From a bacterium (Candidatus Blackallbacteria) CG13_big_fil_rev_8_21_14_2_50_49_14 (GTDB lineage Bacteria > Cyanobacteriota > Sericytochromatia > UBA7694), in the NCBI GenBank assembly GCA_002783405.1, contig PFGG01000013.1:1-34123 (forward strand): a stretch of 34,123 nucleotides of DNA. Reading direction: 5' to 3'. A program made the position numbers and the translations under genes. The notes under the pieces were generated by a model. The model saw only the letters and a list, made by a program, of their open reading frames with translations, did no database searches and was not told where the DNA came from. Positions within the stretch are counted from its first letter, which is position 1; the number at the start of each line of letters is the position of its first letter. Below, in pieces: positions 10,322 through 34,123 of the stretch.

Positions 10322-11746
10322 TTAACGCTGTGCCATCAAGCTTTCAGTGGACAGGATTTCGCAGGGATTTTCAACCCAAGCCCCTGTTTCCTGGCTGGAA
10401 TCTACTTTAGCATGCTCTGAGCTTTTGCCTTTTGTCAGTGATCGCCACAGGATTTTTAAACTGATCTTCAGGGCTGGGCAAGAAGCCCGAAAAAAGGGAT
10501 AACTGGCATCATCCAGCAGGGCTTGGGCCCCTTCAGAACCCAGCCATTCAGAATAGGCAAAGGCGGCTGGAAAATAATCAGTATAGGGATTTTCGCTGTT
10601 TTTTTCAACTGGGGCTTGGCCGACCCAGGCCATTTGGTTGCGCATCACGGCCTGCAGCGCAGGCACCCGATCCAGATTCAAGCGGGCAAAGAGGCGGGAG
10701 CGCCAACCTTTAGTCTGGGCAAAGCGTGGCAGATCTACCGTTTGGTTTTTGAGTTGGTAGGCTTTACGGGTTTGGGGTTGGGAAGGCGCCAAAGCAGCAT
10801 AGAAGGGCAGCAAAAGCAGCCAGAGAAAGCCTGCGCAAAAACGTTCAAAAGGCGTGGCCAGCTCTGAGACTTGAAGCGTATCCAGCCAACCCGGTTCTTC
10901 CAATAAAATCACTTCTTCACTGAGGGGATCAATCAAACGCCGACCCACCACGATTTTATCTTCAAGGGTCAACTGGGGGCCAATCCAGGTGCCATCGAGA
11001 ACCACAGTGCGGAGAATATGGGTGCCTTGTGCCACCATCACGCCTTGCCCCAAATAGGCATCTTGCAATTCTACCTGGCTTTGAATGACAGAATGATTGC
11101 CAATAACCCCTTGGCCTTTGCAAACCAAATCTTTGGCCAAGCTCAGTTTGCTGCCACAATGAAAGCCTTGGTATTGGCCATAGGCCGGCAAACTGATTCT
11201 GGAGCTCCAGCTCGAAACCATTTCGAGATTGGCGCGATGATAATCTTTGAGATTGTTTAAGGCCCATGAGATGCAGTGTGAGCGTGTGGGCAGGTTCTTT
11301 AGTCTGTTTGCCGTTAAACTTCCAGCAAGCACGGCCTTGACGGCTTCTGACGTGAGCCCATAGACCCCCTCGCCCAAGCAAAAGCTTTGATCCAGCCTTA
11401 GACAATGGGGAGCGTGTACAGGGATCAGCAGGCGCAGCCCTTGAACCAGTACCAGCGGGACGTTTTGAATAAAGCTAAGCTGCTGGCGAAGGATCTTGGC
11501 CAAGCAGTTTTCACTGGGCAAAGCCCCATAGCTTAAATTCAATCCCAGAGCCTGGCCTGAGCCATAGCGTTTTTCAAGTTCAGGACTTGCTCCCAAAATG
11601 CGGATATCGCGCAGGCCCATCAGTCCCAGGGTTTCAAGCTGGTACTCGATCACGGCTTTGCCGGCCACGGGCAGCAGCCAAGGATTCATTTCCAAAGTCT
11701 GAAAGTCTTCAAGCGCAGCTTCAGAACAGATCACGAGGGCTTTCAT
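10322..11746 (-). CDS. Degenerate nucleotidyltransferase / left-handed beta-helix / sugar-transferase fusion
   Basis: This 474-aa protein seems to combine three parts. Residues 1-125 resemble sugar nucleotidyltransferases (NPWLLPVAGKAVIEYQLETL, then GLRDIRILG, GLNLSYGALP), but the nucleotide-binding GxGTR loop is missing. Residues about 195-275 carry hexapeptide-like turns (GVIGNHSVIQ, DAYLGQGVMVAQG, TWIGPQLTL), suggesting a left-handed beta-helix. After a hydrophobic segment (about 302-317, FLWLLLLPFYAALA) comes RLFARLNLDRVPALQAV and MRNQMAWVGQAP, recognisable as the C-terminal part of the WcaJ/PglC sugar transferases (LDELPQLxNVLxGDMSLVGPRP), but with the catalytic Glu of the DE dyad changed to Arg. 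It overlaps the STAS gene by ATGA, with GGAGGG inside the STAS 3' end. It is likely a structural or regulatory protein of the machinery rather than an enzyme. Confidence 0.7.
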   Translation of the reverse strand: MKALVICSEAALEDFQTLEMNPWLLPVAGKAVIEYQLETLGLMGLRDIRILGASPELEKRYGSGQALGLNLSYGALPSENCLAKILRQQLSFIQNVPLVLVQGLRLLIPVHAPHCLRLDQSFCLGEGVYGLTSEAVKAVLAGSLTANRLKNLPTRSHCISWALNNLKDYHRANLEMVSSWSSRISLPAYGQYQGFHCGSKLSLAKDLVCKGQGVIGNHSVIQSQVELQDAYLGQGVMVAQGTHILRTVVLDGTWIGPQLTLEDKIVVGRRLIDPLSEEVILLEEPGWLDTLQVSELATPFERFCAGFLWLLLLPFYAALAPSQPQTRKAYQLKNQTVDLPRFAQTKGWRSRLFARLNLDRVPALQAVMRNQMAWVGQAPVEKNSENPYTDYFPAAFAYSEWLGSEGAQALLDDASYPFFRASCPALKISLKILWRSLTKGKSSEHAKVDSSQETGAWVENPCEILSTESLMAQR

Positions 11747-12099
11747 GCGATTTGACCCTCCAGTTCCAAACCGGCAATTGCAGCGTCGACAGAATCGTAG
11801 ATATCAAAGAGGCGATGGGTGCGGGTCAACTGCAAGACCATACGGGGGCCGGATTTGACATTGGCAAGGTAAATGCTGCTGCGTGCAGCCAAACTCATTC
11901 TCAGACAGCGGATCAGTGCACCCAAGCCTGTGCTGTCGAGCAGGTTGAGTTCTTCAAAATCGAGCACCAGGGCGCGCGCAGTTTTCAAGGCGTTTGCAAC
12001 GGCATTCTCAAGATCCTGGGTATAGTCTGCCGTCAGGGTGCCTTTGAGGCTGAGCACAGCGCTGCCGGGATGGCTTTGGGTATTGACAGTGATTTTCAT
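11743..12099 (-). CDS. STAS-domain anti-anti-sigma factor
   Basis: The 118-aa protein is a single STAS domain: AVLSLKGTLTADYTQDLENAV, ALVLDFEELNLLDSTGLGAL. Ser56 in DSTGLG is the expected phosphorylation site, as in SpoIIAA and RsbV. Proteins of this family bind an RsbW-type HATPase kinase when unphosphorylated, releasing that kinase's partner, and are dephosphorylated by PP2C/SpoIIE phosphatases. Such a PP2C-HATPase protein is encoded at 28515-30026. It is the first gene of the leftward export operon, has a strong GGAGGAA site, and lies 60 bp downstream of the repeated bipartite element (12160-12203). Its ATGA overlap with the next gene implies coupled translation. Confidence 0.9.
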   Translation of the reverse strand: MKITVNTQSHPGSAVLSLKGTLTADYTQDLENAVANALKTARALVLDFEELNLLDSTGLGALIRCLRMSLAARSSIYLANVKSGPRMVLQLTRTHRLFDIYDSVDAAIAGLELEGQIA

Positions 12100-12159
12100 A
12101 GGTTCCTCCGATTTGATTTATGGGGTTCTGACTTTAGTCTACGGTTGGGAGGACTTTTG

Positions 12160-12203
12160 CCCTATCAGAGCCTGTCGTAAGAATCTGTGAGGATTTTCTG
12201 ACA
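12160..12203 (-). promoter_or_regulatory. Bipartite regulon element, copy A
   Basis: Minus strand: TGTCAGAAAATCCTCACA (12203-12186), 17 bases, CTGATAGGG (12168-12160). It lies 60 bp upstream of the STAS start and 14 bp from the terminator of the preceding unit, so it is the natural promoter region of the export operon. Confidence 0.7.
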
Positions 12204-15381: not shown

Positions 15382-15425
15382 GACAGTCAGCGCCCGACCT
15401 AAGCCCCTGTCAGAAAGGATCCCCC
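15382..15425 (-). promoter_or_regulatory. Bipartite regulon element, half-site copy C
   Basis: Minus strand: only the right half TTTCTGACA (15416-15408) of the palindrome is kept, then 17 bases, then CTGACTGTC (15390-15382). Strand, spacing and the 52-bp distance to the phosphodiesterase start match the other copies, but the left half and the end of the downstream box have diverged. It lies back to back with copy B. Confidence 0.4.
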
Positions 15426-15428
15426 CCG

Positions 15429-15472
15429 CGTCAGAAAATTCTGACAGGCAGCTCAGTCAGTGCCTGATAGGG
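15429..15472 (+). promoter_or_regulatory. Bipartite regulon element, copy B (most symmetrical)
   Basis: CGTCAGAAAATTCTGACA (15429-15446) contains a perfect 7-2-7 inverted repeat GTCAGAA-AA-TTCTGAC. After 17 bases comes CTGATAGGG (15464-15472), 45 bp upstream of the GT4 start at 15518. Confidence 0.75.
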
Positions 15473-15517
15473 AGCCGAACTTTTCAAAGTTAGAATCATT
15501 TCATGGAGGTGAGAAAA

Positions 15518-16732
15518 ATGCTCAAACAAACCCAAGCCCCACTCAAATTGCTCTGGATTCATGACCGAGCCCGTGGCACCGGAGGCGCAGAACGCTATCT
15601 GATGCAGGTGGCCAGCGCCCTGCGTGAAAAGGGCATTGTTTCCAGCCTGCTCTATGGCCCCGGATACAGCGATCCCGATTTTCTTGCCGCGTTTGAATCG
15701 GCCTGGCCGGCCCTTGAATTCTCAACCCAAATTCAAAAAATTCAACCTGACCTGATCTATGTTCACCGTTTGCCCCAAGGGGTTCGCATGCAAGATCTGC
15801 TTCAATTAGAAATTCCTGTGATGCGCTTTTTTCATGATCACCAACTGCTCTGCCTGCGTGAACACAAATATACGGCGATCGGCCAAAAGACCTGTACCCG
15901 CCCCTTGGGCACACATTGTTATACCTGCCCTGGATTTGTTGTGCGTTCTGGAAGCGGAATCAGCTTGCGCAGCGTAGCGGGAATGAAACAGGAATTGGAC
16001 CTGCACAGGCATCTGGCCCAGGCCGTGGTGGCCTCTGATTACCTGGCCGATCACCTCGTGGCCAATGGCTTTGAGCGTGAAATGATCAGTGTGGTTCCCC
16101 TGTTTGCCTCTGCCCCCCAGCCTGCTCAGCCAGCCTTGGGAAAACCTGCGTTTGACCCCTGGCAATTGCTTTTTGCCGGACAGCTGGTTACCGGCAAGGG
16201 CTTGGACCTGCTTTTAAAAGCGCTGGTCAAAGTACCTCAGGCCAAACTCTGGGTCGCAGGGGAAGGCCGTCAGGCCGAAAAATACCAGCAGATCTGTGAA
16301 GCATTGGGACTGCGTTCCCGTGTTCAGTTTCTGGGCAACCAGAGTGCAGAAGCCTTGAGCCAATTGCAAAACCAAGCTGCCATGGTGGTGATTCCCAGCC
16401 GCGCACCCGAGACCTTTGCGCTGGCAGGGGTTGAAGCCATGTCCCATGGCCGAGCCGTGATTGCCAGTGATGTGGGTGGCATGCGCACCTGGTTGAACCC
16501 TGGCCAGAACGGTTTACTCTTTCCCAGCGGTGATATCCAGGCTTTGGCCGACGCGATCCGCCAATTGGGCGAAGCCCCTGAACTGACTGCAGAGATGGGA
16601 TCACAAGGGGTTCTGCTCTGGCAGGAAAAATTTCAGCTCAGCCAACATCTGCAAAAATTGGTGCCGCTGATGCACCGTCTCGTATTTGAATCCAAACAAA
16701 CCCAAAAATTCAACCTTCAGGAGGCTGCATAA
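15518..16732 (+). CDS. GT4-family glycosyltransferase
   Basis: The 404-aa protein begins with LLWIHDRARGTGGAERYLMQ, the Gly-rich acceptor loop of GT-B enzymes. The donor half starts at LLFAGQLVTGKGLDLLLKAL and includes LWVAGEGRQAEKY, VQFLGNQS and APETFALAGVEAMSHG (about 297-312), where the E-x7-E pair binds the nucleotide sugar. A Cys-containing insert (TCTRPLGTHCYTCPG, about 126-140) occurs in several GT4 enzymes of polysaccharide loci. I chose ATG 15518 because GGAGGTGA is centred 9 bases upstream; an ATG at 15503 would include that site in the gene. It opens a four-gene rightward unit. Cytoplasmic sugar transfer onto a lipid-linked precursor is inferred. Confidence 0.9.
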   Translation: MLKQTQAPLKLLWIHDRARGTGGAERYLMQVASALREKGIVSSLLYGPGYSDPDFLAAFESAWPALEFSTQIQKIQPDLIYVHRLPQGVRMQDLLQLEIPVMRFFHDHQLLCLREHKYTAIGQKTCTRPLGTHCYTCPGFVVRSGSGISLRSVAGMKQELDLHRHLAQAVVASDYLADHLVANGFEREMISVVPLFASAPQPAQPALGKPAFDPWQLLFAGQLVTGKGLDLLLKALVKVPQAKLWVAGEGRQAEKYQQICEALGLRSRVQFLGNQSAEALSQLQNQAAMVVIPSRAPETFALAGVEAMSHGRAVIASDVGGMRTWLNPGQNGLLFPSGDIQALADAIRQLGEAPELTAEMGSQGVLLWQEKFQLSQHLQKLVPLMHRLVFESKQTQKFNLQEAA

Positions 16733-19740: not shown

Positions 19741-19784
19741 ATTCAGAATTTTCTGACAGCAAACCGGGGATTTGCCTGAATGGC
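19741..19784 (+). promoter_or_regulatory. Bipartite regulon element, copy D
   Basis: ATTCAGAATTTTCTGACA (19741-19758), 17 bases, CTGAATGGC (19776-19784). The palindrome core is TCAGAA-TT-TTCTGA. The downstream box is weaker than in other copies. It lies 62 bp upstream of the acyltransferase start. Confidence 0.6.
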
Positions 19785-19846
19785 CCCCACACAGTTTGGG
19801 CCTATGCTGGAGATATCAAGATGAAATATTCCAGCAGGAGGAACCG

Positions 19847-20401: not shown

Positions 20402-21811
20402 ATGTTCAAATATTTGGTCTTTTCAATTGCTTTGGTCTTTCTGCCACCGGTTCTGGCAATGGCCTTAAATCATTCGCTCCGCTTGCGCAGCGCGATCATT
20501 CCCCTGCTGGTTTTTTTGACCGTGAAAACCCAGGATATCAACTTCATTTCCATGGAGACCTATAGGGGGACCGCCAAAGGCTTTGAAGTGTCGCTGATTG
20601 ACCTGCTGGTTTTGGGCTGTCTGGGCTATTTGCTGATGCGCAGGCGGCAAATCAAGCTGACCCTGTGGCCCCCGGGCAGTACGCTCTATGCGCTGTTTTT
20701 CTGCTTTTCGGCGCTCTCGGTTGTGAATGCGGCCAGCCCCCTGTTGGTGGCCTTTGAACTGTTTAAAATGCTGCGCATGTATCTGCTTTTTTGGGTTTTC
20801 AGCCATTGGCTGCAGGAACCCCAGCAAATTAAATGGTTTTTGCGCTCCGTTGCGATCGTGATGCTGTATATCTTTTACGAAATGCTCAACCAAAAGTACC
20901 GCATGGGCATGTGGCAGGCACGGGGGCCCTTTCCCCACCAAAACTCGCTGGTGATGTATGTCAATTTATTCAATTGCATGCTCTTTGCCTATGTGCTCAA
21001 CCAAAAGCGCGCAAAAGCAATGGTCAGCTTATTTTGGCTGGGTTTGCTGGCCGTTGGCATGCTCTGTACCGTCTTTACCTTTTCACGCGGCGGCATGATG
21101 TTTCTGGCCCTGGGCCTGGCGTTGGTCTTTGCCTTTTCGTATACCCCCCGACAAATCAGCCTGCGTAAAACGGTGGTTTTGACCCTGGCTCTGTTGGCCG
21201 GCAGTGGCATTGCCTGGAAAGCCAGTGATTCAATCAAAGAGCGCTTTGACACCGCCCCAGAAGAATCGGTAGAGGTGCGGCAGGTCCTGGCGATTGCCGC
21301 CCTGCGCATGGTGGTCGACAAGCCCCTGGGGGTGGGCTTGAACAATTGGGGCATCAAGATCAACCCCCCTTACCCTTACGGCGACCATATTCCCCGCAAA
21401 GAAAGCAATGACCCCGAAGATGAAGAAGAAAAAGGGGGCTTGGTGGAGACCGTCTACCTGATGACGGCTGCCGAGTGTGGTTGGCATACGCTTGCCCTCT
21501 ACCTGGCCTTGATCTGGAGTTTTTGCCTGCGTGCCTACCGCTTGTATTTTAAAAGCTCCGACCCGCTGATCAAGTCCCTCAGTCTGGGCTTGGCTGTGGG
21601 CATGACTTCGATTTATCTGCAATCCTGCTTTGAATGGGTTTTGAAGCAATCGAATAATTTTTATCAGCTGATGTTGGTTTTTGGCCTGGTTCTTGCCCTG
21701 GAACGCTTTCATAAGAGTCTCAGTACCGCAAAGCGCAGGCCTGTCAGAAAAGTCTCACAGCAGAAGCCCCAGCCTTCTGATAGGTCGAAAATCCTGGCTC
21801 AGGTACGCTAA
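20402..21811 (+). CDS. Wzy/WaaL-like O-antigen polymerase or ligase
   Basis: This 469-aa membrane protein has about ten to twelve hydrophobic segments and the features of the O-antigen ligase/polymerase superfamily: a large extracytoplasmic loop with a conserved 'KPLGVGLNNW' turn (about 306-315), preceded by the segment 'VFTFSRGGMMFLALGLALVF' and followed by a highly charged stretch (DPEDEEEKGG). Since the locus also has a flippase and a co-polymerase, a Wzy polymerase role is most likely; a ligase cannot be excluded. The basic C-terminal tail (RRPVRKVSQQKPQPSDRSKI) is encoded by the DNA that carries element copy E, which may explain its low-complexity look. Confidence 0.8.
   Translation: MFKYLVFSIALVFLPPVLAMALNHSLRLRSAIIPLLVFLTVKTQDINFISMETYRGTAKGFEVSLIDLLVLGCLGYLLMRRRQIKLTLWPPGSTLYALFFCFSALSVVNAASPLLVAFELFKMLRMYLLFWVFSHWLQEPQQIKWFLRSVAIVMLYIFYEMLNQKYRMGMWQARGPFPHQNSLVMYVNLFNCMLFAYVLNQKRAKAMVSLFWLGLLAVGMLCTVFTFSRGGMMFLALGLALVFAFSYTPRQISLRKTVVLTLALLAGSGIAWKASDSIKERFDTAPEESVEVRQVLAIAALRMVVDKPLGVGLNNWGIKINPPYPYGDHIPRKESNDPEDEEEKGGLVETVYLMTAAECGWHTLALYLALIWSFCLRAYRLYFKSSDPLIKSLSLGLAVGMTSIYLQSCFEWVLKQSNNFYQLMLVFGLVLALERFHKSLSTAKRRPVRKVSQQKPQPSDRSKILAQVR
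21742..21785 (+). promoter_or_regulatory. Bipartite regulon element, copy E, inside the upstream coding sequence
   Basis: TGTCAGAAAAGTCTCACA (21742-21759), 17 bases, CTGATAGGT (21777-21785), 45 bp upstream of the GT4 start at 21831, the same distance as copy B. It lies wholly within the last 70 bp of the Wzy-like gene. Confidence 0.65.
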
Positions 21812-21830: not shown

Positions 21831-22991
21831 ATGCGTATTTTAGTCATCAGCAATTATTATCCACCCCTGAGTGTCGGGGGCTACGAAATCGCCTGTGCCC
21901 AGACTGTTGACTGGCTGCGTGCCCGCGGCCATGAAGTGCGGGTTCTGACCAGCAATTGGCGGGCAGACGAAGTGCCTGAAGAAAACCATGTTTTGCGTGT
22001 CTTTGAAAGGATCGATTATCAAAAAGGGGGGTATCAGCAGAAATGGCAGACTGAGCAGTTCAATTATCTCAGAACGCGTCAGGAACTGAATGATTATGCC
22101 CCAGATCTGGTCTATTTCTGGAGCCAGCGTTTGATCTCCCTGGGGCCCGTCTATGCCGTGCAACGCATGAAGTTTCCCCGGGTTTTTGAAATCGGAGACT
22201 TTTGGCCGGATTCCTATCTGAAACCCGGTTGGAAACCCAAACTGAAACGCGAAATCAAACGCTTTCTGCCCGGACTTTTGGGCGATAAATGGAGGCTCGA
22301 TCCTGTGATTTCTGTCGCCCAGTGGATGGTGCCCGAACTGCGCAGTAAATATGGCAGCCAAGACATTCAAGTGGTGCCCAATGGCTTGCCCATCCCCAAG
22401 CAGCGCAACACGCTTCATTTCAATCAGCCCCTGAAGGCTCTCTTTGTCGGGCGTCTCGATCCTGAAAAGGGACTGCATCTTGCGCTGGAAGCACTCGCGC
22501 TCTTAAACGCAAAAGGCCTGATCCTGCCCCTGACCGTGGCTGGCCAGGGAGACCCTGAGTATTCTGCCTTTTGCCGCAAAAGGGTATCAGAGCTGGCGCT
22601 TGATGATCTGGTCAGGTTTGTAGGCTGGCAAAAGGACACCGACGCCCTCTATGCTGAGCACCAGATTTTGCTCATGCCGACCACCATGCGTGAACCCTTC
22701 GGTTTGGTGATTGTCGAAGCCATGATGCGTGGCCTGGTGGTCTTTGCCTCAAATGCCTACGGCCCAGCAGAAATTATCCAAGATCGCAAATCTGGATTTT
22801 TATTTCAACCGGGAGACAGCCGTCAGCTTGCAAATCTGCTGCAAGAACAGTTCGCGAACCCTATGAATCTGGCGACCATCAGCCAGCGGGCCCGTGTTTA
22901 TGCCCAAGATACCTTCGCTTTGGATCGGGTCAAAACCCAAGTCGAAGCCATTCTGTTCGAAAAGGGAGGCCGCGCATGGAAAGCAGCTTAA
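21831..22991 (+). CDS. GT4-family glycosyltransferase
   Basis: The 386-aa enzyme has the GT-B plan: ISNYYPPLSVGGYEIACAQT at the N-terminus (Gly-Gly acceptor loop), VPNGLPIP at the domain junction, ALFVGRLDPEKGLHLALEAL at the start of the donor half, VAGQGDPEYSAF, and REPFGLVIVEAMMRG (about 286-300) with the E-x7-E pair. The usual GT4 length is about 370-400. GAGGTGAAAAATT precedes the ATG. It overlaps the flippase gene by 16 bases, so the two are translationally coupled. Donor and acceptor are unknown. Confidence 0.9.
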   Translation: MRILVISNYYPPLSVGGYEIACAQTVDWLRARGHEVRVLTSNWRADEVPEENHVLRVFERIDYQKGGYQQKWQTEQFNYLRTRQELNDYAPDLVYFWSQRLISLGPVYAVQRMKFPRVFEIGDFWPDSYLKPGWKPKLKREIKRFLPGLLGDKWRLDPVISVAQWMVPELRSKYGSQDIQVVPNGLPIPKQRNTLHFNQPLKALFVGRLDPEKGLHLALEALALLNAKGLILPLTVAGQGDPEYSAFCRKRVSELALDDLVRFVGWQKDTDALYAEHQILLMPTTMREPFGLVIVEAMMRGLVVFASNAYGPAEIIQDRKSGFLFQPGDSRQLANLLQEQFANPMNLATISQRARVYAQDTFALDRVKTQVEAILFEKGGRAWKAA

Positions 22992-24569: not shown

Positions 24570-24623
24570 GAATCAGCCAAGGTTCCTTGATCTTTAGATC
24601 AGAAACCTTGGCTGATTCTTTTT
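24570..24623 (+). terminator. Long-stem intrinsic terminator after the flippase gene
   Basis: GAATCAGCCAAGGTT (24570-24584) pairs perfectly with AACCTTGGCTGATTC (24604-24618). An inner TGATCT-TT-AGATCA hairpin fills the loop, and TTTTT follows. It ends the rightward unit 47 bp after the flippase stop. Confidence 0.9.
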
Positions 24624-26030: not shown

Positions 26031-28388
26031 CTATGAATTGATGGGGGCAATGAAGTTTTGTGCCAAAGCAGGGGCTGTAGATTTTTGCGGCAAGAGTTTC
26101 TCGTAGAGCGTTTCGTAAATTTCAATCAGAGCCGCATAGGTATATTTTTGGCGCACAAGTGTCTGGCCCTGCGCAGCCATTTCAGGGAGTTTTGCCCGCT
26201 CAAGATAGGCCGCTTGCATTTTTTCTGCCAGAACCTTCAAATTTTGACTGGGAAAGACATAGCCATTGACACCCTCGATCACCAGGTTGGGATCGACGGC
26301 ATCACTTTGCAGAACAGGAATACCTCCCATCCAGCTTTCCACGACCACCGCCCCCGAGTTCATGAACCGCACAGGGATGACATGAATTTGCGCGAACTGT
26401 AACCAACCCAGCGCTTCTTCGCGTTCGACCATGCCAGTGAAAATGACACGATCTTCAAGCCCCTTGGCACGGATTAGGGCCTGCATTTTGGCGAAATATT
26501 CGGGTTCATAGTCACTGCGCCCAACAAATACCAGACGACTTTGGGGAAGATCGGCTTCAATAAAGGCCTTAAGTGCCAAATCCTGACCTTTGATGGCAGA
26601 AACCCGTCCCAGGGATAAAAATACAAATTCGTCGGGCTGAATTCCATATCTGCTGCGTGGGTCAGGCATTTTTAAATTGAATTCTTCAGGCAGAATCGGT
26701 ACAGGGGAATAAGCTACCTGCGCGTTAAAGCGTTTGAAAAAGGCAAGTTCACGATCAGAAATGGCGAAGATGGCATCGAGCAGGCGCAGAGCCAGGCGTT
26801 CTTTTAAACCCGGTTGGTGCTGCTTGAGAATATCAGGCGTGAGTTTTCCGCTGGGAATCAAAGCGGCATAGTCGAGATAGTCAAAGGAACACAAAACGGT
26901 TTTTTTACCTGAGAGTTTAGCCGCTGCCAAAGCCAAAAAATTATTGGGATTCAAGGCAGGAAACAACTGCACGATTTCATGCTTGCCTGTCAGGATTTTC
27001 CAAAACAGAGAAGGGCAGAAGGTTTTGGCCTGAATATTGGGTAATTTTTTTGCCAAACGATCTTTCAGCCGCCAGGTGGCAAATCCATGTGTGTATTCAA
27101 AGGTGGGTTTGTCAATCCGGCGAGGGCAATAGACAGTGACCTGATTGTGCTGGGCCAAAGCCTTGGCCTGGTGATAGATATTGATTTCGGCCCCGCCGAT
27201 TTCTGGAAAAAAACGGTTGGTGACAATGGCGATCCGGTGGTGTTTGGCAGAGAATTCCTGTTCAAGGGCTGCATAGAGAATTTGAGCCACCTGATGGGGT
27301 GAGTAAAGCGCTTCGGCTTCCTGCTTTAAACGTTGGCCCAGCGCCATTCCCTGAGCGGGCTCCGCTAAAATTTTGATGACCTGATCTGCCAAAGCACGGG
27401 GGCTTTCGGCCAGGGCCAAAGCCTGAAGCTTCAGCCCTTCTGCGCCCAAACGGGTGGTCACCACAGGGCGTGAACAGGCCGCTGCTTCAAGAATACGGGT
27501 GCGGGTGCCGGAAGCTACGCGTAGGGGCAAAAGCACACAGCGGGCAGCTGAAATTTCTGCGGCTATATCTGTACAGGCTCCGATGATGTCCATCCGGGGC
27601 TGGGCCTGATAGATCACGCTCGGACGCTGGCCGACAATCCGAATGCGCAGGTCTCTGCGAATCAGCTCAGGTTCCAGTAAGGGGTAGATTTCATCTCTGA
27701 GGTATTGAAAGGCATTGATATTTGCTGCTGAGTCCAAAGTGCCAAAGAAGAGAATATCTTTGCCCAGGACAGGGGTTTGTGCTGACACCGGTGCCTCTGG
27801 CATGAAATTGGGCAAAACCTGAAAGCGCTCGGTCTGCAGGGGTGAATGCGTGGCCAAGACCGCATCTCTTTCCTGCGGGTTGCTGAAGAAAAAAGTATAG
27901 TCTTTGGCAAAAAGCTTGCGCTCAAAGCCTTTGAGCTTTTGATTCTGAATCCAGTAATAGCGGTTTTTGAGTTGGGGAGATTGTTTCCAGGCCAATTCTG
28001 AAAGTCGCGAAAAAACCATGTCAATATCCATCAGGATTTTGACATGGGGCAAGACCTGCTGCGCGATCTCAGCCAGGGCGGCAGGCGCCGCGAAACGCAG
28101 AACGATGGCATCATAGCGGCGAGTTAGTAAGAGGTCTTTAAAATCTTGAAGTGTTTTCTGATCAAAACGATAAAGGGCCTCGGGGTGCAGACCTTTGCCC
28201 TGGTGGTAGGGCAGGAAATGGATTTCCTGGGCCTCGGGATAGTTTTCCTGGGCTTCAGTTTCGCTGCTTAAGAGCAAGAGATCGCACTTATAGCGAGGGG
28301 TCAGGGTTTTCCATAAAAAACGACTGCGGTTTTTGTCTCCCCCTGCCTGTGTGGCGAAAGGGCGGTCGATATACAGGATAGTTTGCAT
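26031..28388 (-). CDS. Tandem GT4-GT4 glycosyltransferase
   Basis: At 785 aa this is about twice the size of a GT4 enzyme. The first module (1-375) begins QTILYIDRPFATQAGGDKNR and contains ILFFGTLDSAANINAFQYL and LRVASGTRTRILEAAACSRP (about 288-308), with a conserved Glu. The second module (about 385-770) begins IAIVTNRFFPEIGGAEINIY, then FLSLGRVSAIKGQDLALKAF, RLVFVGRSDYEPEYF, VIFTGMVEREE and NSGAVVVESWMGGIPVLQSD (about 678-697). Both have Gly-rich acceptor loops and donor-binding regions, so two consecutive sugar additions by one chain are likely. AGGAGGA precedes the ATG; element copy F lies 53 bp upstream. It forms a unit with the sugar transferase gene. Confidence 0.9.
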   Translation of the reverse strand: MQTILYIDRPFATQAGGDKNRSRFLWKTLTPRYKCDLLLLSSETEAQENYPEAQEIHFLPYHQGKGLHPEALYRFDQKTLQDFKDLLLTRRYDAIVLRFAAPAALAEIAQQVLPHVKILMDIDMVFSRLSELAWKQSPQLKNRYYWIQNQKLKGFERKLFAKDYTFFFSNPQERDAVLATHSPLQTERFQVLPNFMPEAPVSAQTPVLGKDILFFGTLDSAANINAFQYLRDEIYPLLEPELIRRDLRIRIVGQRPSVIYQAQPRMDIIGACTDIAAEISAARCVLLPLRVASGTRTRILEAAACSRPVVTTRLGAEGLKLQALALAESPRALADQVIKILAEPAQGMALGQRLKQEAEALYSPHQVAQILYAALEQEFSAKHHRIAIVTNRFFPEIGGAEINIYHQAKALAQHNQVTVYCPRRIDKPTFEYTHGFATWRLKDRLAKKLPNIQAKTFCPSLFWKILTGKHEIVQLFPALNPNNFLALAAAKLSGKKTVLCSFDYLDYAALIPSGKLTPDILKQHQPGLKERLALRLLDAIFAISDRELAFFKRFNAQVAYSPVPILPEEFNLKMPDPRSRYGIQPDEFVFLSLGRVSAIKGQDLALKAFIEADLPQSRLVFVGRSDYEPEYFAKMQALIRAKGLEDRVIFTGMVEREEALGWLQFAQIHVIPVRFMNSGAVVVESWMGGIPVLQSDAVDPNLVIEGVNGYVFPSQNLKVLAEKMQAAYLERAKLPEMAAQGQTLVRQKYTYAALIEIYETLYEKLLPQKSTAPALAQNFIAPINS

Positions 28389-28441
28389 TTTTTATTCTTC
28401 CTCCTGGGCTTTCTTTTAGCATACGCTGGCCCCGACAAGGC

Positions 28442-28485
28442 CTCTATCAGAGGGGGGCTGCAGTCAGTGTAGGAATTTTCTGAAG
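28442..28485 (-). promoter_or_regulatory. Bipartite regulon element, copy F
   Basis: Minus strand: CTTCAGAAAATTCCTACA (28485-28468), 17 bases, CTGATAGAG (28450-28442). It lies 53 bp upstream of the GT4-GT4 gene. Confidence 0.65.
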
Positions 28486-28514: not shown

Positions 28515-30026
28515 TCAGCCCTTGAGAGCGACTTTTTCCTGAACACGCGAGAAGAGCATGACCGCCAGATTGGAGCCTCCCTCACGCTTTACCTCAAAGC
28601 TTTGGCAAAGTTTGTCGATCAACCACAGACCCCGTCCTGAATCCTGCATCGGATCAATGGCCTCTGGACAGGGGGGCAATTCCCAATCTGGGCCAAAATC
28701 GCGAATTTTTAATTCTAAGCTTTCTGCCGAAATCGAGGCTTCGAGATCGATGGTCTGGGTTTGGCCGTGAATGACGAGATTATTGGCATACTCCAACCAG
28801 GCCAGGGCTATTTCCTGACTGTTAAAAGCCAGTTCTTGGGCTTGAAGCCAATCTGTCAAGGCATACATTTCTGCTTCTACCTGGGAGAGACTGGCTGGGA
28901 TGCTGTTTTTTCGCACGCGCATCTGAAAACCGATTGCCAATAGACTCACATCGTCTTGAAAACCTTGTCCGCGCATGCGCTCAGGAAGTTCACGGCAGAG
29001 GGCCTCTGGGCTCAGGGCAGCGTGTTCTGCCGCTCTTTGGGTCAAGCGGGTAAAGGCTGAAACCTCTGAGATCTGGTGTTCAAACAATCCGTCACTGCAA
29101 AGCAGGAGCCGATCCTCGGTCCTCAATTGCCAATGGGTTTCCATTTCCGGGTGGATCGTTTCGATGGGTTGAATCCCAATTGGCATCGCACCTTTGTCGG
29201 GTTGATCCAAGAGCTGTACCTGGCCCTGACGCAAAAGCAGGCCGGGCGGGTGACCTGCATTGCAGAGAGTGAGTTTGCCAGTTTGCAAGTTGAGATGCCC
29301 CAAGATCAGCGTCAGGTAATGTTGTTTTAGCAAGGGATTCATATGCAGAGCCAAACCTCTCATGATTTGCCAGGGCTGGGTTTCACCCGCTTCAAAAAGG
29401 GTATCCAAATGGGTTTTAATGGCGGCAACGAGCAAGGCGGCATGTACGCCATGACCGGATACATCGCCTAAATAAAACAGATAGTTTCCTGATTCAAGTT
29501 TTTTGATGTCGAGCAGGTCACCACTGACCGTTTCAAGCGGCAGGTAGGTATATCCGATCTGCACAGCGGGGTCTTGGGTGAGTTTGGGTAAAAACAATCG
29601 CTGTACCTGGCCTGCCAGTTCGCGATCCGCCTGTAAAGCCTGATTTAATTTTTTAATCGCGCGCAGATGGCGTTGGGTGTTGATAATGCTTGAAACCCGT
29701 GCCAATAATTCCCTTTTGTTGAAGGGTTTTAGAACATAGTCCTGTGCGCCCAGGGCAAATGCTTCAGCCAATTCGCCTGAGCTGGCCGTTAACATAATAA
29801 CAGGAGGAGACTGGGGCTGGGCTTTGAGCAGGGCCAATACTTCCATGCCTGTGATATCTGGCAGTTGAATATCCAATAGAACCAGATCAATGGCTTCTTT
29901 GCGCAGGATTTTCAAGCCTTCTATACCAGAACTGGCCAAACTGACCTGATACCCCGCCTGGTGTAAAAACCGATCGATGAGGATGCCGGTATCAGGATGA
30001 TCTTCGACGATGAGGATATGTTCCAT
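28515..30026 (-). CDS. Receiver - PP2C (SpoIIE) phosphatase - HATPase partner-switching regulator
   Basis: The 503-aa protein has three domains. Receiver 1-120: ILIVEDHP, phospho-acceptor D52 in LLDIQLPD, LTASS and KPFNKRE. PP2C/SpoIIE about 150-370: ETVSGDLLDIKKL, YLGDVSGHGVHAALL, CNAGHPPGLLL, LLLCSDGLFEH and GFQDDVSLLAIGF, with the metal-binding Asp residues in place. RsbW-like HATPase about 375-500: LAWLEYANNLVIHG (N-box), KIRDFGPDWE and DSGRGLWLIDKLCQSFEVKR. The same order is found in HsbR of Pseudomonas and CrsR of Shewanella, where the phosphatase dephosphorylates and the HATPase phosphorylates a STAS partner. The STAS protein at 11743-12099 is the obvious partner. I prefer ATG 30026; GTG at 30035 would add three residues. 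Element copy G lies 91 bp upstream. Confidence 0.9.
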   Translation of the reverse strand: MEHILIVEDHPDTGILIDRFLHQAGYQVSLASSGIEGLKILRKEAIDLVLLDIQLPDITGMEVLALLKAQPQSPPVIMLTASSGELAEAFALGAQDYVLKPFNKRELLARVSSIINTQRHLRAIKKLNQALQADRELAGQVQRLFLPKLTQDPAVQIGYTYLPLETVSGDLLDIKKLESGNYLFYLGDVSGHGVHAALLVAAIKTHLDTLFEAGETQPWQIMRGLALHMNPLLKQHYLTLILGHLNLQTGKLTLCNAGHPPGLLLRQGQVQLLDQPDKGAMPIGIQPIETIHPEMETHWQLRTEDRLLLCSDGLFEHQISEVSAFTRLTQRAAEHAALSPEALCRELPERMRGQGFQDDVSLLAIGFQMRVRKNSIPASLSQVEAEMYALTDWLQAQELAFNSQEIALAWLEYANNLVIHGQTQTIDLEASISAESLELKIRDFGPDWELPPCPEAIDPMQDSGRGLWLIDKLCQSFEVKREGGSNLAVMLFSRVQEKVALKG

Positions 30027-30117
30027 CTTCTCCACTCCAGAAACGCATCAAAGAGTATCCCAAATTTTGCAAAGGGAAATGGGATCTGTACTCAGTCAAT
30101 CATTTTTGAGCATAAGA

Positions 30118-30161
30118 CCCTATCAGGAAGTGAGAAGATGGGGTGTCAGAAAATTCCGACA
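30118..30161 (-). promoter_or_regulatory. Bipartite regulon element, copy G
   Basis: Minus strand: TGTCGGAATTTTCTGACA (30161-30144), 17 bases, CTGATAGGG (30126-30118). It sits in the 138-bp gap between the NarL-type regulator and the PP2C regulator, 91 bp upstream of the latter. Confidence 0.7.
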
Positions 30162-30164
30162 ACC

Positions 30165-30791
30165 TCAGATCAAATTGTTTTCAATTGCATAGTGAATAAT
30201 CGCCGAACGATTGACAAGGTTCATTTTTTCCAGAATTCGGCTTTGATAGGTACTTACCGTTTTTTCACTCAAAAAGAGTTCGGTTGCAATTTCTTTGTTC
30301 TTATGGCCTGCAGCAATCAGACGAAAGATTTCAAATTCCCGGTCGCTCAAACGCTCATGGGGAATATCTGATTTCTGACCGATATCCATGACCAATTGCT
30401 CAGCCAGGCTTTCGGTGATATAACGGCCGCCTTTGGCAATTTTACGCAAAGCGGCAACCAATTCTTCTGAAACAGAACCCTTGTTCAAAAAACCTGCGGC
30501 ACCGGCTTTGAGCATGCGGGTTGCATATTGTTTCTCAGAGTGCATGGTCAGGATCAAAACAGGCATGTGTGGCCATTGTTGTTTGATTTGTTTCAAGACT
30601 TCAAGACCACTTTGGTCGCCGAGGTTGATATCCAAAATAACCAGATCAATTTCTTCAGACTCAAGTTGGCGAATCGCTTCATAGCCGCTGTCGGCCTCTG
30701 CTTTAACGGTCAGATCGGGCAGGCCCGATAAAATTTGTTTGAGCCCTTCTCTAACGATGGCATGATCATCGGCAATCAAAATTCGAATCAT
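30165..30791 (-). CDS. NarL/FixJ-family response regulator
   Basis: The 208-aa protein has a receiver (1-120: IRILIADDHAIVREGLKQIL, phospho-acceptor D54 in LVILDINLG, LTMHSE, GAAGFLNKGS) and a LuxR-type helix-turn-helix (about 140-205: RLSDREFEIFRLIAAGHKNK, then EIATELFLSEKTVSTYQSRI). Such regulators dimerise on short inverted heptamers. The start at 30791 overlaps the kinase stop as ATGA and has GGAGGA upstream; a longer start at 30872 would run into the kinase gene in another frame. It is cotranscribed with its likely kinase. It is my candidate for the protein that reads the repeated element, because the palindrome has the 7-2-7 form known for NarL; this is inference. Confidence 0.95.
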   Translation of the reverse strand: MIRILIADDHAIVREGLKQILSGLPDLTVKAEADSGYEAIRQLESEEIDLVILDINLGDQSGLEVLKQIKQQWPHMPVLILTMHSEKQYATRMLKAGAAGFLNKGSVSEELVAALRKIAKGGRYITESLAEQLVMDIGQKSDIPHERLSDREFEIFRLIAAGHKNKEIATELFLSEKTVSTYQSRILEKMNLVNRSAIIHYAIENNLI

Positions 30792-31975
30792 TGGGGATCC
30801 TCCAAAGCGACTGTGACATAAATGGTTGTTCCCTGGCCAGGGCTGCCGCTGATACGCACTTCGCCATTCCAAGACAGCAGACGTTCGCGGATACCCATCA
30901 GCCCCAAAGAGCTGGGATGCTCGATTCGATCAGGGGGGATGCCTTTGCCATTGTCGACGATCTCCAGCCGCAAAGTCGAATCCTGCGCTTCAAGCAGAAT
31001 TCTTACGTTCTGGGCTTCAGCATGGCGCATGACATTGGTCAGCGATTCCTGACAAATTCGAAACAAGGGCGTGGCCAGATCTGAGGGAATATCCAGATCT
31101 TCTGGCATAACATCGAATTGCGTATGAATGCCTGTGCGTTCCCCAAATTCCTGTACCAACCATTCCAAAGCATCGACCAGGCCCAGATCATCGAGTAAAC
31201 CGGGGCGCAGTTCGGCACAAATGCGCTGAATGGTGAGTATGGTATCGCTGACCAGCGGGATCATGCGTTGGATTTTGGCGTGAAGCTCAGTCTGTTCCTG
31301 GGGTAAATTTTTCGCCAACCAACCCAAATCGAGTTTCAGGGCGGTCATGGCCTGACCTAATTCATCATGAATTTCGCGTGAAATGCGCTTTTGCTGGTCT
31401 TCTTGAATCGAGAGTAAACGGCTGGCCAAGGCACGCAATTGATCGCGGGTTTGAGCCAAAAGCGCTTCTGCAGTGCTGCGCTGTTGAATTTCATCTTGCA
31501 AAGCCTGAACCGTGTCTGAAAGCGCTTCGGTGCGATCAAGCACTCGCTGTTCAAGTTCTAAGTGGTATTGTGCCAGGGCATTTTCTGCTTTGCGGCGTTC
31601 CTGTAGATGATGAACCTGTTGTTCCGCTATTCTGGCTCGCACTTCGAGCAATTGCATATCGATGGGTTTGGCGAGATAGTCATTGGCACCGGCAGCCAAG
31701 ACCTCCAAAAGATCTTCGCGGGCATCTCGGGCGGTAATCACCCAAATATACAGGTATTCACTGTTCGGTCGTTCACGCAAAAGCCGACAGAGTTCGAGAC
31801 CACTCATGCCGGGTAAAATCCAATCCAGAATCAGAAGATCAAAATGATCTTTTTGGATGAGTTCCCAGGCTGCTTCAGCACTTTCAAGACTTGTGACCTG
31901 GTAACCATAGCGGGTCAACTTCTGTTGAAACAGCAAACGCAGACTGGGATCATCTTCAACCAGGAGAATCTTCAT
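30788..31975 (-). CDS. Hybrid histidine kinase: receiver - coiled coil - HisKA_3 - HATPase
   Basis: The 395-aa protein starts with a receiver domain (1-120; D51 in LLILDWILPGMSG, VITARD, KPIDMQLLEVRA), then a coiled coil (about 120-180, ENALAQYHLELEQRVLDRTE). The HisKA_3 dimerisation helix has the phospho-His in RISREIHDELGQAMTALKLD. The HATPase domain (about 290-392) shows ESLTNVMRHAEA, LEIVDNGKGIPPD, LGLMGIRERLLSW and GSPGQGTTI. There is no membrane segment or sensor domain, so it is a cytoplasmic kinase whose input is its own receiver. HisKA_3 kinases pair with NarL-type regulators, and the next gene is one. It begins 9 bp after the manC stop, in the same operon. Confidence 0.95.
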   Translation of the reverse strand: MKILLVEDDPSLRLLFQQKLTRYGYQVTSLESAEAAWELIQKDHFDLLILDWILPGMSGLELCRLLRERPNSEYLYIWVITARDAREDLLEVLAAGANDYLAKPIDMQLLEVRARIAEQQVHHLQERRKAENALAQYHLELEQRVLDRTEALSDTVQALQDEIQQRSTAEALLAQTRDQLRALASRLLSIQEDQQKRISREIHDELGQAMTALKLDLGWLAKNLPQEQTELHAKIQRMIPLVSDTILTIQRICAELRPGLLDDLGLVDALEWLVQEFGERTGIHTQFDVMPEDLDIPSDLATPLFRICQESLTNVMRHAEAQNVRILLEAQDSTLRLEIVDNGKGIPPDRIEHPSSLGLMGIRERLLSWNGEVRISGSPGQGTTIYVTVALEDPQ

Positions 31976-31984
31976 GAAAGCCTT

Positions 31985-33382
31985 TCAATTGCGCTGGTAA
32001 CGGTCCTCAAAGCGCACGATATCGTCTTCGCCTAAATAGGGGCCAGATTGAACTTCAATCAATTCAAGATCAATGGTACCAGGGTTTTCTAAACGATGCA
32101 CGCTGCCCAGGGGAATATACGTGGATTGATTTTCGGTCAGAAGAAAAGTCTCATCGCCCCGTGTGACCTGGGCTGTTCCTTTCACCACAATCCAATGTTC
32201 GGCACGGTGATGGTGCATCTGTTTCGAGAGGGCCTGTCCAGGATGGACGGTGATGCGCTTGACCTGAAAGCGTTCTCCCTGATCCACGGTTTCATAAGCG
32301 CCCCAGGGTCTGGCCACCCGGCGGTGGTTTTGGGCTTCAGGGCGATTCGCTTCCCGCAATTTGCCCACCAGCTCCCGCACGTCTTGGGCATGATCCTGGC
32401 TGGCGACCAGCACTGCATCAGGGGTTTCGATGACCAAAAGATTCTCAACACCCACGGCGGCAACCAGACGGCCACTGCTCTGCAGGAGATTTCCTGAAGA
32501 TTCAAGCGAGATCACATCTCCCTGACAGGCATTGCCATGGGCATCTGTGGGATAAAGTGCCTTGAGCGCATCCCAGGAGCCTACGTCTGACCAACCCGCT
32601 TTTAAGCCAAGCACGGCGCCACGGCGGGTTTTCTCCATGACAGCATAGTCGATTGACCGTGCAGGACAGGCGGCAAAACTTGTGCTTTCAGGGCGGAAGA
32701 AATCTGCATCAGTTTTTCCTTGGGCAAAGGCTGTCTGGCAAGACCTTAAGATTTCAGGCGCATAGCGTTCGATCTGCTCGATCCAGGTTTGGGCGCTGAG
32801 CACGAACATGCCGCTGTTCCAAAGATAAGTTCCCTGTTCCAGATATTGGCGTGCAGTGGCTTCATCCGGTTTTTCGACAAAACCCAAGATTTGCTCTCCA
32901 TCTGCATGGATATAGCCATAGCCTGTTTCTGGACGTTCGGGAACGATTCCGAAGGTGACAATCCGATCTTCCTGAGCCAGCTCTGCTGCTTGGGTCAATC
33001 TGCTACGAAAGGCTGCGGGGTCTTGCATGGCATGATCGGAAGGCATGACCAGCATGAGGGCGTCGGGTTGATGGGCTTGTACCCAAAGTGCGGCCAGGGT
33101 GAGTGCAGGTGCAGTATTGCGTGCCTGGGGTTCAAGCAGAATAACAGCAGGGGTTTGGTTCATTTGACGCAATTGATCACTGACCAGAAAACGGTGTTCC
33201 TCATGGGTGACAATCAAAGGGGCTTGCACGCCGTTTAAGCCCTCTAAACGCTGAAGGGTTTCCTGAAAGAGGGAGCGCTCAGATTGAAGGGTTACAAATT
33301 GTTTGGGAAAATGCTCACGGGAGAGGGGCCAGAGTCGGGTGCCAGAGCCCCCACAGAGTACAACAGGAATCCATTTTTGCAT
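31985..33382 (-). CDS. manC: Bifunctional mannose-1-phosphate guanylyltransferase / mannose-6-phosphate isomerase
   Basis: The 465-aa protein has the standard length of ManC/AlgA-type enzymes. The N-terminal nucleotidyltransferase shows VVLCGGSGTRLWPLSRE with PKQF, LVMPSDHAM, FGIVPERPETGYGYI, FVEKPD, YLWNSGMFV and GWSDVGSWDAL. The C-terminal cupin shows RPWGAYETVDQGERFQVKRI, HPGQALSKQMHHHRAEHWIV and YIPLGSVHRLENPG, the zinc-binding His motif of type II phosphomannose isomerases. The enzyme makes GDP-mannose from mannose-1-phosphate and can interconvert fructose-6-P and mannose-6-P. It therefore supplies the polysaccharide locus. AAGGAGA precedes the ATG. It is first in an operon with the hybrid kinase and NarL regulator; no copy of the repeated element is seen upstream. 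Confidence 0.95.
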   Translation of the reverse strand: MQKWIPVVLCGGSGTRLWPLSREHFPKQFVTLQSERSLFQETLQRLEGLNGVQAPLIVTHEEHRFLVSDQLRQMNQTPAVILLEPQARNTAPALTLAALWVQAHQPDALMLVMPSDHAMQDPAAFRSRLTQAAELAQEDRIVTFGIVPERPETGYGYIHADGEQILGFVEKPDEATARQYLEQGTYLWNSGMFVLSAQTWIEQIERYAPEILRSCQTAFAQGKTDADFFRPESTSFAACPARSIDYAVMEKTRRGAVLGLKAGWSDVGSWDALKALYPTDAHGNACQGDVISLESSGNLLQSSGRLVAAVGVENLLVIETPDAVLVASQDHAQDVRELVGKLREANRPEAQNHRRVARPWGAYETVDQGERFQVKRITVHPGQALSKQMHHHRAEHWIVVKGTAQVTRGDETFLLTENQSTYIPLGSVHRLENPGTIDLELIEVQSGPYLGEDDIVRFEDRYQRN

Positions 33383-33674
33383 TTAATTTCTCCTTGCTTT
33401 CAGTTGCATATGCGTTCTGAGCTTTTTAAGTCTGGGCTGGGAAAACGCATTTCATTCCCTGGGCCATATCCTTATTATTTAACAAATTCATTCAAGCAGT
33501 TATCAGTCTTTGGCGTTTATGATTGTAAGAATTTACCTACAGCATTCCACAGCCTATTGTTTCTCAATTATTAGGAGTTGATTAAATCAGCACGCATGAC
33601 TCTTAACTCACTCTATAATAGGTTTATACCCAATTTTTCCAAAATCACGAAATTCTGTTTGAGGAGCCGCCTGG
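33383..33674. other. Divergent intergenic region between manC and the LysM gene
   Basis: The 292-bp gap holds no gene. A perfect TATAAT (33614-33619, plus strand) lies 55 bp upstream of the LysM gene, but no matching -35 hexamer is seen at 16-18 bp. For manC I see no convincing promoter, and neither side has the bipartite element of the polysaccharide units. Confidence 0.5.
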
Positions 33675-34123
33675 ATGCCCAATATTCATAATTCGAATTC
33701 TCCTATCACCGTTCAACCCCAGACCCCCCTTTCTTTTCCAGCGCAAACTTCCCCTGTACAAGCGAATACGCAGGAACAGACTCCGGCTGCAGCGACTGCC
33801 CCCAAGGATCAATTCAATTTGGGAAGTTTGAGTGGAACTCAGACCAGCCCTCATTTTACGGAGTATCAGGTCAAACGTGGGGATACCCTGAGTAAGATTG
33901 CCCAAAAGCAATGGGGCAGTTCTGAAAATTATCTGGATATTTTTGAAGCCAATAAAGATGTTTTACGAAATCCCAACGATTTGCATATTGGCATGACCCT
34001 GAAAATTCCTACGCCTCCCAACAGCGTCGACTTTCCAACAGGAACCCCAGCAGCCGAAACCCCAGCAGCTGAAACCCCAGCAGCCGAAACCCCAGCAGCT
34101 GAAACCCCAGCAGCTGAAACCCC
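33675..34123 (+). CDS. LysM-domain protein with PAAET repeats, cut by the right edge
   Basis: The frame is open to the window edge (149 residues visible). The first 60 residues are a Pro/Thr/Gln/Ala-rich linker without a signal peptide. A LysM domain follows: TEYQVKRGDTLSKIAQKQWG, then NYLDIFEANKDVL and NPNDLHIGMTLKIP, the usual fold for binding peptidoglycan or other N-acetylglucosamine polymers. The protein then runs into TPAAE repeats of five residues. GAGGAG lies 8 bases upstream of the ATG. The lack of a signal peptide is odd for a cell-wall binder; similar LysM modules also occur in phage- and secretion-related proteins. The C-terminal part, which would decide its role, is outside the window. 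Confidence 0.8.
   Translation, partial: MPNIHNSNSPITVQPQTPLSFPAQTSPVQANTQEQTPAAATAPKDQFNLGSLSGTQTSPHFTEYQVKRGDTLSKIAQKQWGSSENYLDIFEANKDVLRNPNDLHIGMTLKIPTPPNSVDFPTGTPAAETPAAETPAAETPAAETPAAET
34041..34123 (+). repeat. 15-bp tandem repeat encoding PAAET
   Basis: Units of the form GAAACCCCAGCAGCY repeat from 34056 (four perfect copies to 34115, plus a slightly altered first copy at 34041 and a partial one at the edge). The last base alternates between C and T. The repeat keeps the reading frame and adds TPAAE per unit; such arrays can change in copy number. Confidence 0.9.

Follow-up and report, generated by a model that had tools for sequence, protein, structure and literature searches.

The 34,123-nucleotide stretch of DNA analysed here, hereafter the window, is filled by a polysaccharide cluster that probably forms a self-contained unit, run by its own two-component pair and fitted with a co-regulated PP2C/STAS gate. 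A composite promoter element of fixed layout precedes the operon of the two-component pair, several genes of polymer synthesis and the genes for the PP2C and STAS proteins.

A polysaccharide locus with its own regulators

Pfam searches identified glycosyltransferases, Wzy- and Wzx-like proteins, a WecG-type transferase, a sugar-phosphate transferase, ManC, SLBB/Poly_export and GNVR proteins across the window, together with four regulators: a sensor kinase, a NarL/LuxR-type response regulator, a REC-PP2C-HATPase protein and a single-domain STAS protein. An Rfam search of the window gave no match. The host genome is a 5.65-Mb draft (96% complete) in which a search for photosynthetic reaction-centre genes returned none and the Synechococcus control was positive; we infer that the host belongs to a non-photosynthetic class of the cyanobacterial phylum. 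The genes on which the analysis centres are as follows (domains from Pfam).

31985..33382, (-): ManC-type mannose-1-phosphate guanylyltransferase/isomerase, first gene of a presumed manC-kinase-regulator operon
30788..31975, (-): sensor kinase REC-HisKA_3-HATPase with an N-terminal receiver; overlaps the response-regulator gene
30165..30797, (-): NarL/LuxR-type response regulator, REC plus GerE HTH; proposed binder of the element
28515..30026, (-): REC-PP2C(SpoIIE)-HATPase_c_2 protein, 503 aa; presumed kinase/phosphatase of the STAS protein
11743..12099, (-): single-domain STAS protein, 118 aa, with Ser56
10322..11746, (-): 474-aa hexapeptide-repeat protein (weak LbH/Hexapep match), translationally coupled to STAS

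The locus was compared with those of two relatives, G001 (of the same genus) and G004. In G001 it is almost wholly syntenic, including the kinase, regulator, PP2C and STAS genes, and identity to the G001 orthologues is 82% for the response regulator, 68% for the kinase, 48% for STAS and 41% for PP2C. The STAS gene was not found in G004, an assembly that is 73% complete.

Two repeats were also observed. The end of a wzx-like gene and a convergent sugar-transferase gene are separated by what looks like a terminator serving both, an inverted repeat at 24570-24618 whose 18-nt arms (94% complementary) enclose a 13-nt loop. Tandem repeats of 15 bp, a five-codon unit resembling CAGCCGAAACCCC, stand at the window's right edge (34021-34123) and again just beyond it (L067:83-144).

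Seven promoter copies of a fixed-spacing element

The initial annotation had placed the element at two promoters, and its description lacked the long layout. We found seven copies, one of them before the manC-kinase-regulator operon (33474-33541). Each consists of the 18-bp palindrome TGTCAGAAAATTCTGACA, 17 bp, the box CTGATAGGG (the third box), 18 bp and a TANNNT -10. At ≤3 mismatches the palindrome matched the window seven times, at 5 places, versus 0.02 matches expected in shuffled sequence. Across the genome, all matches with ≤2 mismatches lay inside this locus, and 3-mismatch matches outside it were at control level. A weight-matrix scan added one further copy, the one upstream of manC-kinase-regulator, as well as copies in the relatives. 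The copies and their orthologues are listed below.

33474..33541, (-): manC-kinase-regulator promoter; TGTAGGTAAATTCTTACA-17-CTGATAACT-18-AATAAT; a weaker match, from the weight-matrix and palindrome-only scans; orthologues at G004 L179:836 and, weak, at G001 L061:18944
30094..30161, (-): PP2C promoter, directly 3' of the response-regulator gene; TGTCGGAATTTTCTGACA-17-CTGATAGGG-18-TTGACT
28418..28485, (-): promoter of glycosyltransferase 26031-28388; CTTCAGAAAATTCCTACA-17-CTGATAGAG-18-TATGCT
21742..21809, (+): promoter of glycosyltransferase 21831-22991; TGTCAGAAAAGTCTCACA-17-CTGATAGGT-18-TACGCT; orthologues at G001 L062:19334 and G004 L065:2998
19741..19808, (+): promoter of hexapeptide transferase/wzy genes; ATTCAGAATTTTCTGACA-17-CTGAATGGC-18-TATGCT; orthologues at G001 L063:1412 and G004 L065:873
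15429..15496, (+): promoter of glycosyltransferase 15503-16732, in a divergent intergenic region; CGTCAGAAAATTCTGACA-17-CTGATAGGG-18-TAGAAT; a palindrome at the orthologous position in G001, L063:5739
12136..12203, (-): STAS operon promoter; TGTCAGAAAATCCTCACA-17-CTGATAGGG-18-TAGACT; orthologue at G001 L063:9037

To keep the count of spacings from being circular, sites in the window, G001 and G004 were selected on the palindrome only. Among these sites from the three genomes, the third box stood at offset 17 in 12 cases, with no other offset reaching more than 2, and TANNNT followed exactly 18 nt on in 10 of 15 sites, with no other distance reaching more than 3. If TANNNT is set at -12 to -7, the third box spans -39 to -31 and the palindrome spans -74 to -57. 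In its letters the third box is similar to a palindrome half-site plus flank (TTCTGACAGG versus TCTGATAGGG), and the best reading is that of an additional half-site standing in for a -35 hexamer; the other half of this proposed second regulator site, within the 17-bp spacer, shows no conservation. The -10 is an ordinary TANNNT, with no conservation of an extended -10. A reading in which CTGATAGGG was the -10 box and CTGATA an ordinary -35 was dropped in view of the TANNNT at a fixed 18 nt; CTGATA lies 21 bp from that -10.

The element was also seen in the relatives. G001 carries it at the manC (weak), post-regulator, glycosyltransferase, hexapeptide-transferase and STAS positions, with a palindrome in the divergent region. 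In G004 it precedes the manC-kinase-regulator genes, follows the 3' end of the regulator gene and stands ahead of hexapeptide and glycosyltransferase genes. The composite pattern matched six times in this genome, three times in G001 and twice in G004, and was found neither in 15 other members of the class nor in the reversed control. A regulator of 81-100% identity occurs in only 3 of 18 class members, the same three that have the composite element.

In the divergent region, the palindrome also has a CTGACAGGG box 15 bp off on the other strand (15405-15446, minus strand). From this arrangement, the phosphodiesterase/WecG operon may share the divergent regulator site with altered spacing.

The local response regulator as the predicted binder

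The element is very probably a response-regulator site, and there is a good likelihood that its binder is the local regulator. E. coli UvrY binds the 18-nt palindrome TGTGAGAGATCTCTTACA, with the consensus TGTAAGN6CTTACA (PMC4682653), and TGTCAGAAAATTCTGACA, present at the locus promoters, has the architecture of the UvrY/GacA box, TGTNAG-N6-CTNACA. The best NCBIfam model for the regulator is UvrY/SirA/GacA (NF007018), at 165 bits, below the curated cut-off of 280, and the protein has no AAA+ domain in Pfam. It is 81-82% identical in the relatives. Elements precede the regulator's own operon and, in the relatives, also lie just 3' of the regulator gene.

We then fetched distant homologues of the regulator, 80 loci of 48-55% identity from many phyla, and a kinase homologue accompanied the regulator in 79 of them. 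Boxes with ≤1 mismatch from the UvrY consensus were located ≤35 nt past the end of the regulator gene in Melioribacteraceae (L102) and Methylobacter (L125), the same position as that of the window's copy at 30144. Among 79 downstream regions, 2 had a box at ≤2 mismatches versus 0.18 expected, a modest enrichment. Further palindromes 3' of distant regulators were TGTAGGAAAAATACTACA (L126) and CGTAGGAATCGTCCTACA (L118), which point in the same direction but come from a matrix scoring that was partly post hoc, and generic palindrome scans downstream of the 80 homologues returned mostly noise and a few good boxes.

Palindromes of the type TGTAGGAA..TTCCTACA were observed just 3' of the regulator gene at L102, L125, L126, L118, L141 and L087. 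The genes after the palindromes of distant regulators are often receiver-, PAS- or HD-type signalling-like.

The PP2C and STAS proteins as a plausible switch

The initial annotation had described the product of 28515-30026 as a receiver-PP2C-HATPase protein and that of 11743-12099 as a STAS protein, and Pfam confirmed both identities (Response_reg 2e-28, SpoIIE/PP2C 1e-36 and HATPase_c_2 1e-12 in the first, STAS 5e-14 in the second). The 16-kb separation that it gave also holds, with 16.4 kb between genes that are not side by side, as does a copy of the element in front of each (palindromes at 30144-30161 for PP2C and 12186-12203 for STAS). The two genes had been placed at the two ends of the locus; both are in fact internal. 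Downstream of STAS the operon runs on to SLBB (7211), and past PP2C on the map lie the response regulator, the kinase and manC (to 33382).

In the PP2C protein, REC D52 and PP2C D170/D188/D312/D358-359 are conserved in two relatives, and the N, G1 and G2 boxes of the HATPase domain are intact and likewise kept in two relatives (E412/N416, D443/G445, SGRG 463-466). Ser56 of the STAS protein is invariant across orthologues, and its nearest solved structure is TM1442, an anti-sigma factor antagonist. The stop of the STAS gene overlaps the start of the next gene, that of the hexapeptide protein, by 4 nt, and this adjacency is also found in G001. An HsbR/HsbA- or CrsR/CrsA-like switch had been proposed for the two proteins, and this part of the proposal is plausible from the domain order, the key residues and the conserved split, a SypE/SypA-like switch being another form of it; the further claim, under which a sigma factor released by the switch would use the element as its promoter, found no support.

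We consider it probable that the PP2C and STAS proteins are partners. The pairing is weakened because the orthologues are only 41-48% identical, and the two proteins might instead each have other partners (the unlinked RsbW-like kinase, for instance, in the case of STAS), with the regulator's promoters as their sole shared feature. This is an unlikely reading, though it draws on several observations: the genes are distant as well as diverged, they are linked only by domain logic and co-regulation, and a stand-alone RsbW-like HATPase adjoins another STAS gene at C75. Against it, near-complete SpoIIE/PP2C matches occur in only three proteins of the whole genome, soluble STAS proteins are few, and G001 keeps both genes in the same locus behind the same promoter type.

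A second STAS gene was found in G001 (L064:9654-9986) behind a full element (10017-10084), unlinked to the polysaccharide locus, and no sigma gene was recognised beside it. Its neighbours, read from sequence, are phospholipase-D-like and beta-propeller-like proteins. At L064:11944-14433 there is a CRISPR-like repeat array (repeated ORF peptides) that adjoins Cas1- and Cas2-like proteins.

Sigma factors as a possible output of the switch

As the initial annotation had stated, the window holds no sigma factor gene: the main ORFs carry no sigma domain, and none of the 10 Sigma70_r2 matches in the genome lies on this contig. These matches include two SigB/F/G-like genes (C80:131656 and C11:190430) and FliA/WhiG-like ones. 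Across the whole genome, the neighbourhoods of the soluble STAS genes and of the RsbW-like HATPase genes held no sigma gene, and neither of the two SigF/SigB-like sigma genes has a STAS or HATPase_c_2 gene next to it. A linked sigma partner was rejected on this ground. A better-matching STAS/HATPase pair beside a sigma gene elsewhere had been allowed for; the most RsbW-like pair of the genome, adjacent STAS and RsbW-like HATPase genes at C75:257205-257915 (L163), has no adjacent sigma gene. By sequence, this pair adjoins a GAF-GGDEF-type protein and a cyclase-like protein, and it looks like a further partner switch. Another STAS gene, at C45, was observed near a HATPase-acetyltransferase-like fusion.

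On balance, we lean towards an output of the switch other than a sigma factor; STAS might nevertheless target one. An arrangement with a sigma factor as output is an AND gate in which the regulator binds the palindrome and the polymerase carries a group 2/3 sigma controlled by the switch. The CTGATAGGG box replaces the -35, so that sigma identity cannot be read from the -35, and HsbR-type HATPase domains can bind sigma factors (PMC6482189). This arrangement is nonetheless doubtful: TANNNT is the -10 of the primary sigma, with nothing further conserved as an extended -10, and no particular sigma gene is linked to the locus.

The initial annotation had offered the element as the promoter of an alternative sigma, here a SigF/SigB-like group 3 factor that an anti-sigma factor would hold and the PP2C/STAS switch would free, with positive feedback on the STAS and PP2C genes. 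The SigB/F/G-like and FliA/WhiG-like genes of the genome speak for such a promoter, as does the promoter-like fixed spacing of CTGATAGGG and TANNNT. SigF promoters of Synechocystis have TAGGC near -32, which the TAGGG in the third box resembles. CrsR and HsbR, moreover, are anti-sigma factors of RpoS (PMC6482189). Sigma factors do not, however, contact an 18-bp palindrome around -65, and the third box matches the palindrome half-site TTCTGACAGG. Searched for without the palindrome, the promoter part gave 30 genomic matches versus 9 in the reversed control, and 22 of the 25 outside the window lie inside ORFs; alone, it forms no intergenic promoter class outside the locus. Because the promoter part does not recur, no sigma gene is linked to STAS and the plain TANNNT -10 lacks the GGG of the SigJ J-box (GGGaAtacT), this explanation is very improbable for an element that is confined to one locus and whose palindrome is of response-regulator type.

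Proposed circuit

In the circuit that we favour, the sensor kinase (30788-31975) would phosphorylate the NarL/UvrY-like response regulator (30165-30797), a dimer of which would bind the 18-bp palindrome centred near -65. A second regulator unit on the CTGATAGGG box, at about -39 to -31, would substitute for the -35 and recruit housekeeping RNA polymerase to the TANNNT -10. The seven promoters would thereby drive the glycosyltransferase and polymerase genes, manC-kinase-regulator, the STAS operon and the PP2C gene, with predicted positive autoregulation through the manC-kinase-regulator promoter. Since the seven regulator promoters include those of STAS and PP2C, both proteins would be co-regulated outputs of the regulator.

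Most likely the two proteins would form a switch of the SypE/SypA or HsbR/HsbA kind: the HATPase domain would phosphorylate STAS Ser56, the PP2C domain would reverse this and the receiver would set the balance between kinase and phosphatase. The switch would probably gate polymer production after transcription; the syp precedent and the HsbR/CrsR domain order led us to weight such a post-transcriptional gate best. A specific form of it, in which the polysaccharide machinery is itself the direct target of STAS (the coupled hexapeptide protein, 10322-11746, being one example) and Ser phosphorylation gates glycan assembly, seems rather improbable. The hexapeptide protein is a speculative candidate for the STAS partner, and single-sequence structure prediction of this 474-aa protein was uninformative (pLDDT 33).

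This circuit would extend the syp-type design, in which a polymer locus brings its own activator and a co-regulated kinase/phosphatase/STAS gate, to a non-photosynthetic cyanobacterial relative and with another class of activator. With seven copies of one promoter at fixed spacings, the locus would make an unusually clean local regulon whose regulator, site and targets are all legible at once. The gene that follows STAS and is translationally coupled to it is a concrete candidate for the long-sought target of SypA-like proteins; direct STAS action on glycan machinery, if true, would be a partner switch with an enzyme complex as its output and would hint at the target of SypA.

Comparison with known systems

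By analogy, the syp locus of Vibrio (Aliivibrio) fischeri is the closest working model. SypE has its kinase domain first, whereas the order here is REC-PP2C-HATPase, and sypA is first in its locus, whereas the STAS gene here is internal. Both are polysaccharide loci with their own sensor kinase and DNA-binding activator; within syp, SypE phosphorylates and dephosphorylates SypA Ser56, and SypG activates the locus (PMC4517449). The target of SypA is not known, and a role as an anti-sigma antagonist is without support (PMC4517449). SypG is a sigma54 enhancer-binding protein (PMC10162802), in contrast to the NarL/UvrY-like regulator and TANNNT -10 found here. Common to the two systems are also a receiver protein whose outputs are a serine phosphatase and a serine kinase, and a STAS protein of one domain in which Ser56 is conserved.

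The STAS and kinase/phosphatase genes of HsbR/HsbA and CrsR/CrsA lie side by side, whereas here 16.4 kb of a polysaccharide locus separates them. HsbR/HsbA of Pseudomonas aeruginosa and CrsR/CrsA of Shewanella, which control sessile and planktonic life, have the same receiver-phosphatase-kinase order and a STAS partner (PMC6482189). Those switches act on sigma factors or a cyclase, with FlgM, HsbD or RpoS as their targets, and no such partner is encoded in the locus here. The Hmp switch of Nostoc punctiforme (HmpU/V/W) is a cyanobacterial STAS/phosphatase/kinase switch; it is linked to motility and polysaccharide, and its target is not known (PMC8256260). Its kinase and phosphatase are separate proteins, unlike here, and transcription of hmpV is sigC dependent (PMC6495340).

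BarA-UvrY and GacS-GacA share with this locus a NarL-family regulator and the 18-bp palindrome TGTNAG-N6-CTNACA (PMC4682653), binding here being predicted. They differ in that UvrY acts mainly on the csrB/csrC small RNAs from far upstream (about -180), whereas the element here stands at a fixed -65 at seven local promoters, and in that the regulator here scores below the curated UvrY/GacA cut-off. LetA of Legionella has a similar box. BvgA-activated promoters of Bordetella have a high-affinity inverted repeat and a phased second site that reaches the -35 region, a layout similar to the present one; motif and genus differ, and the likeness is one within the NarL family.
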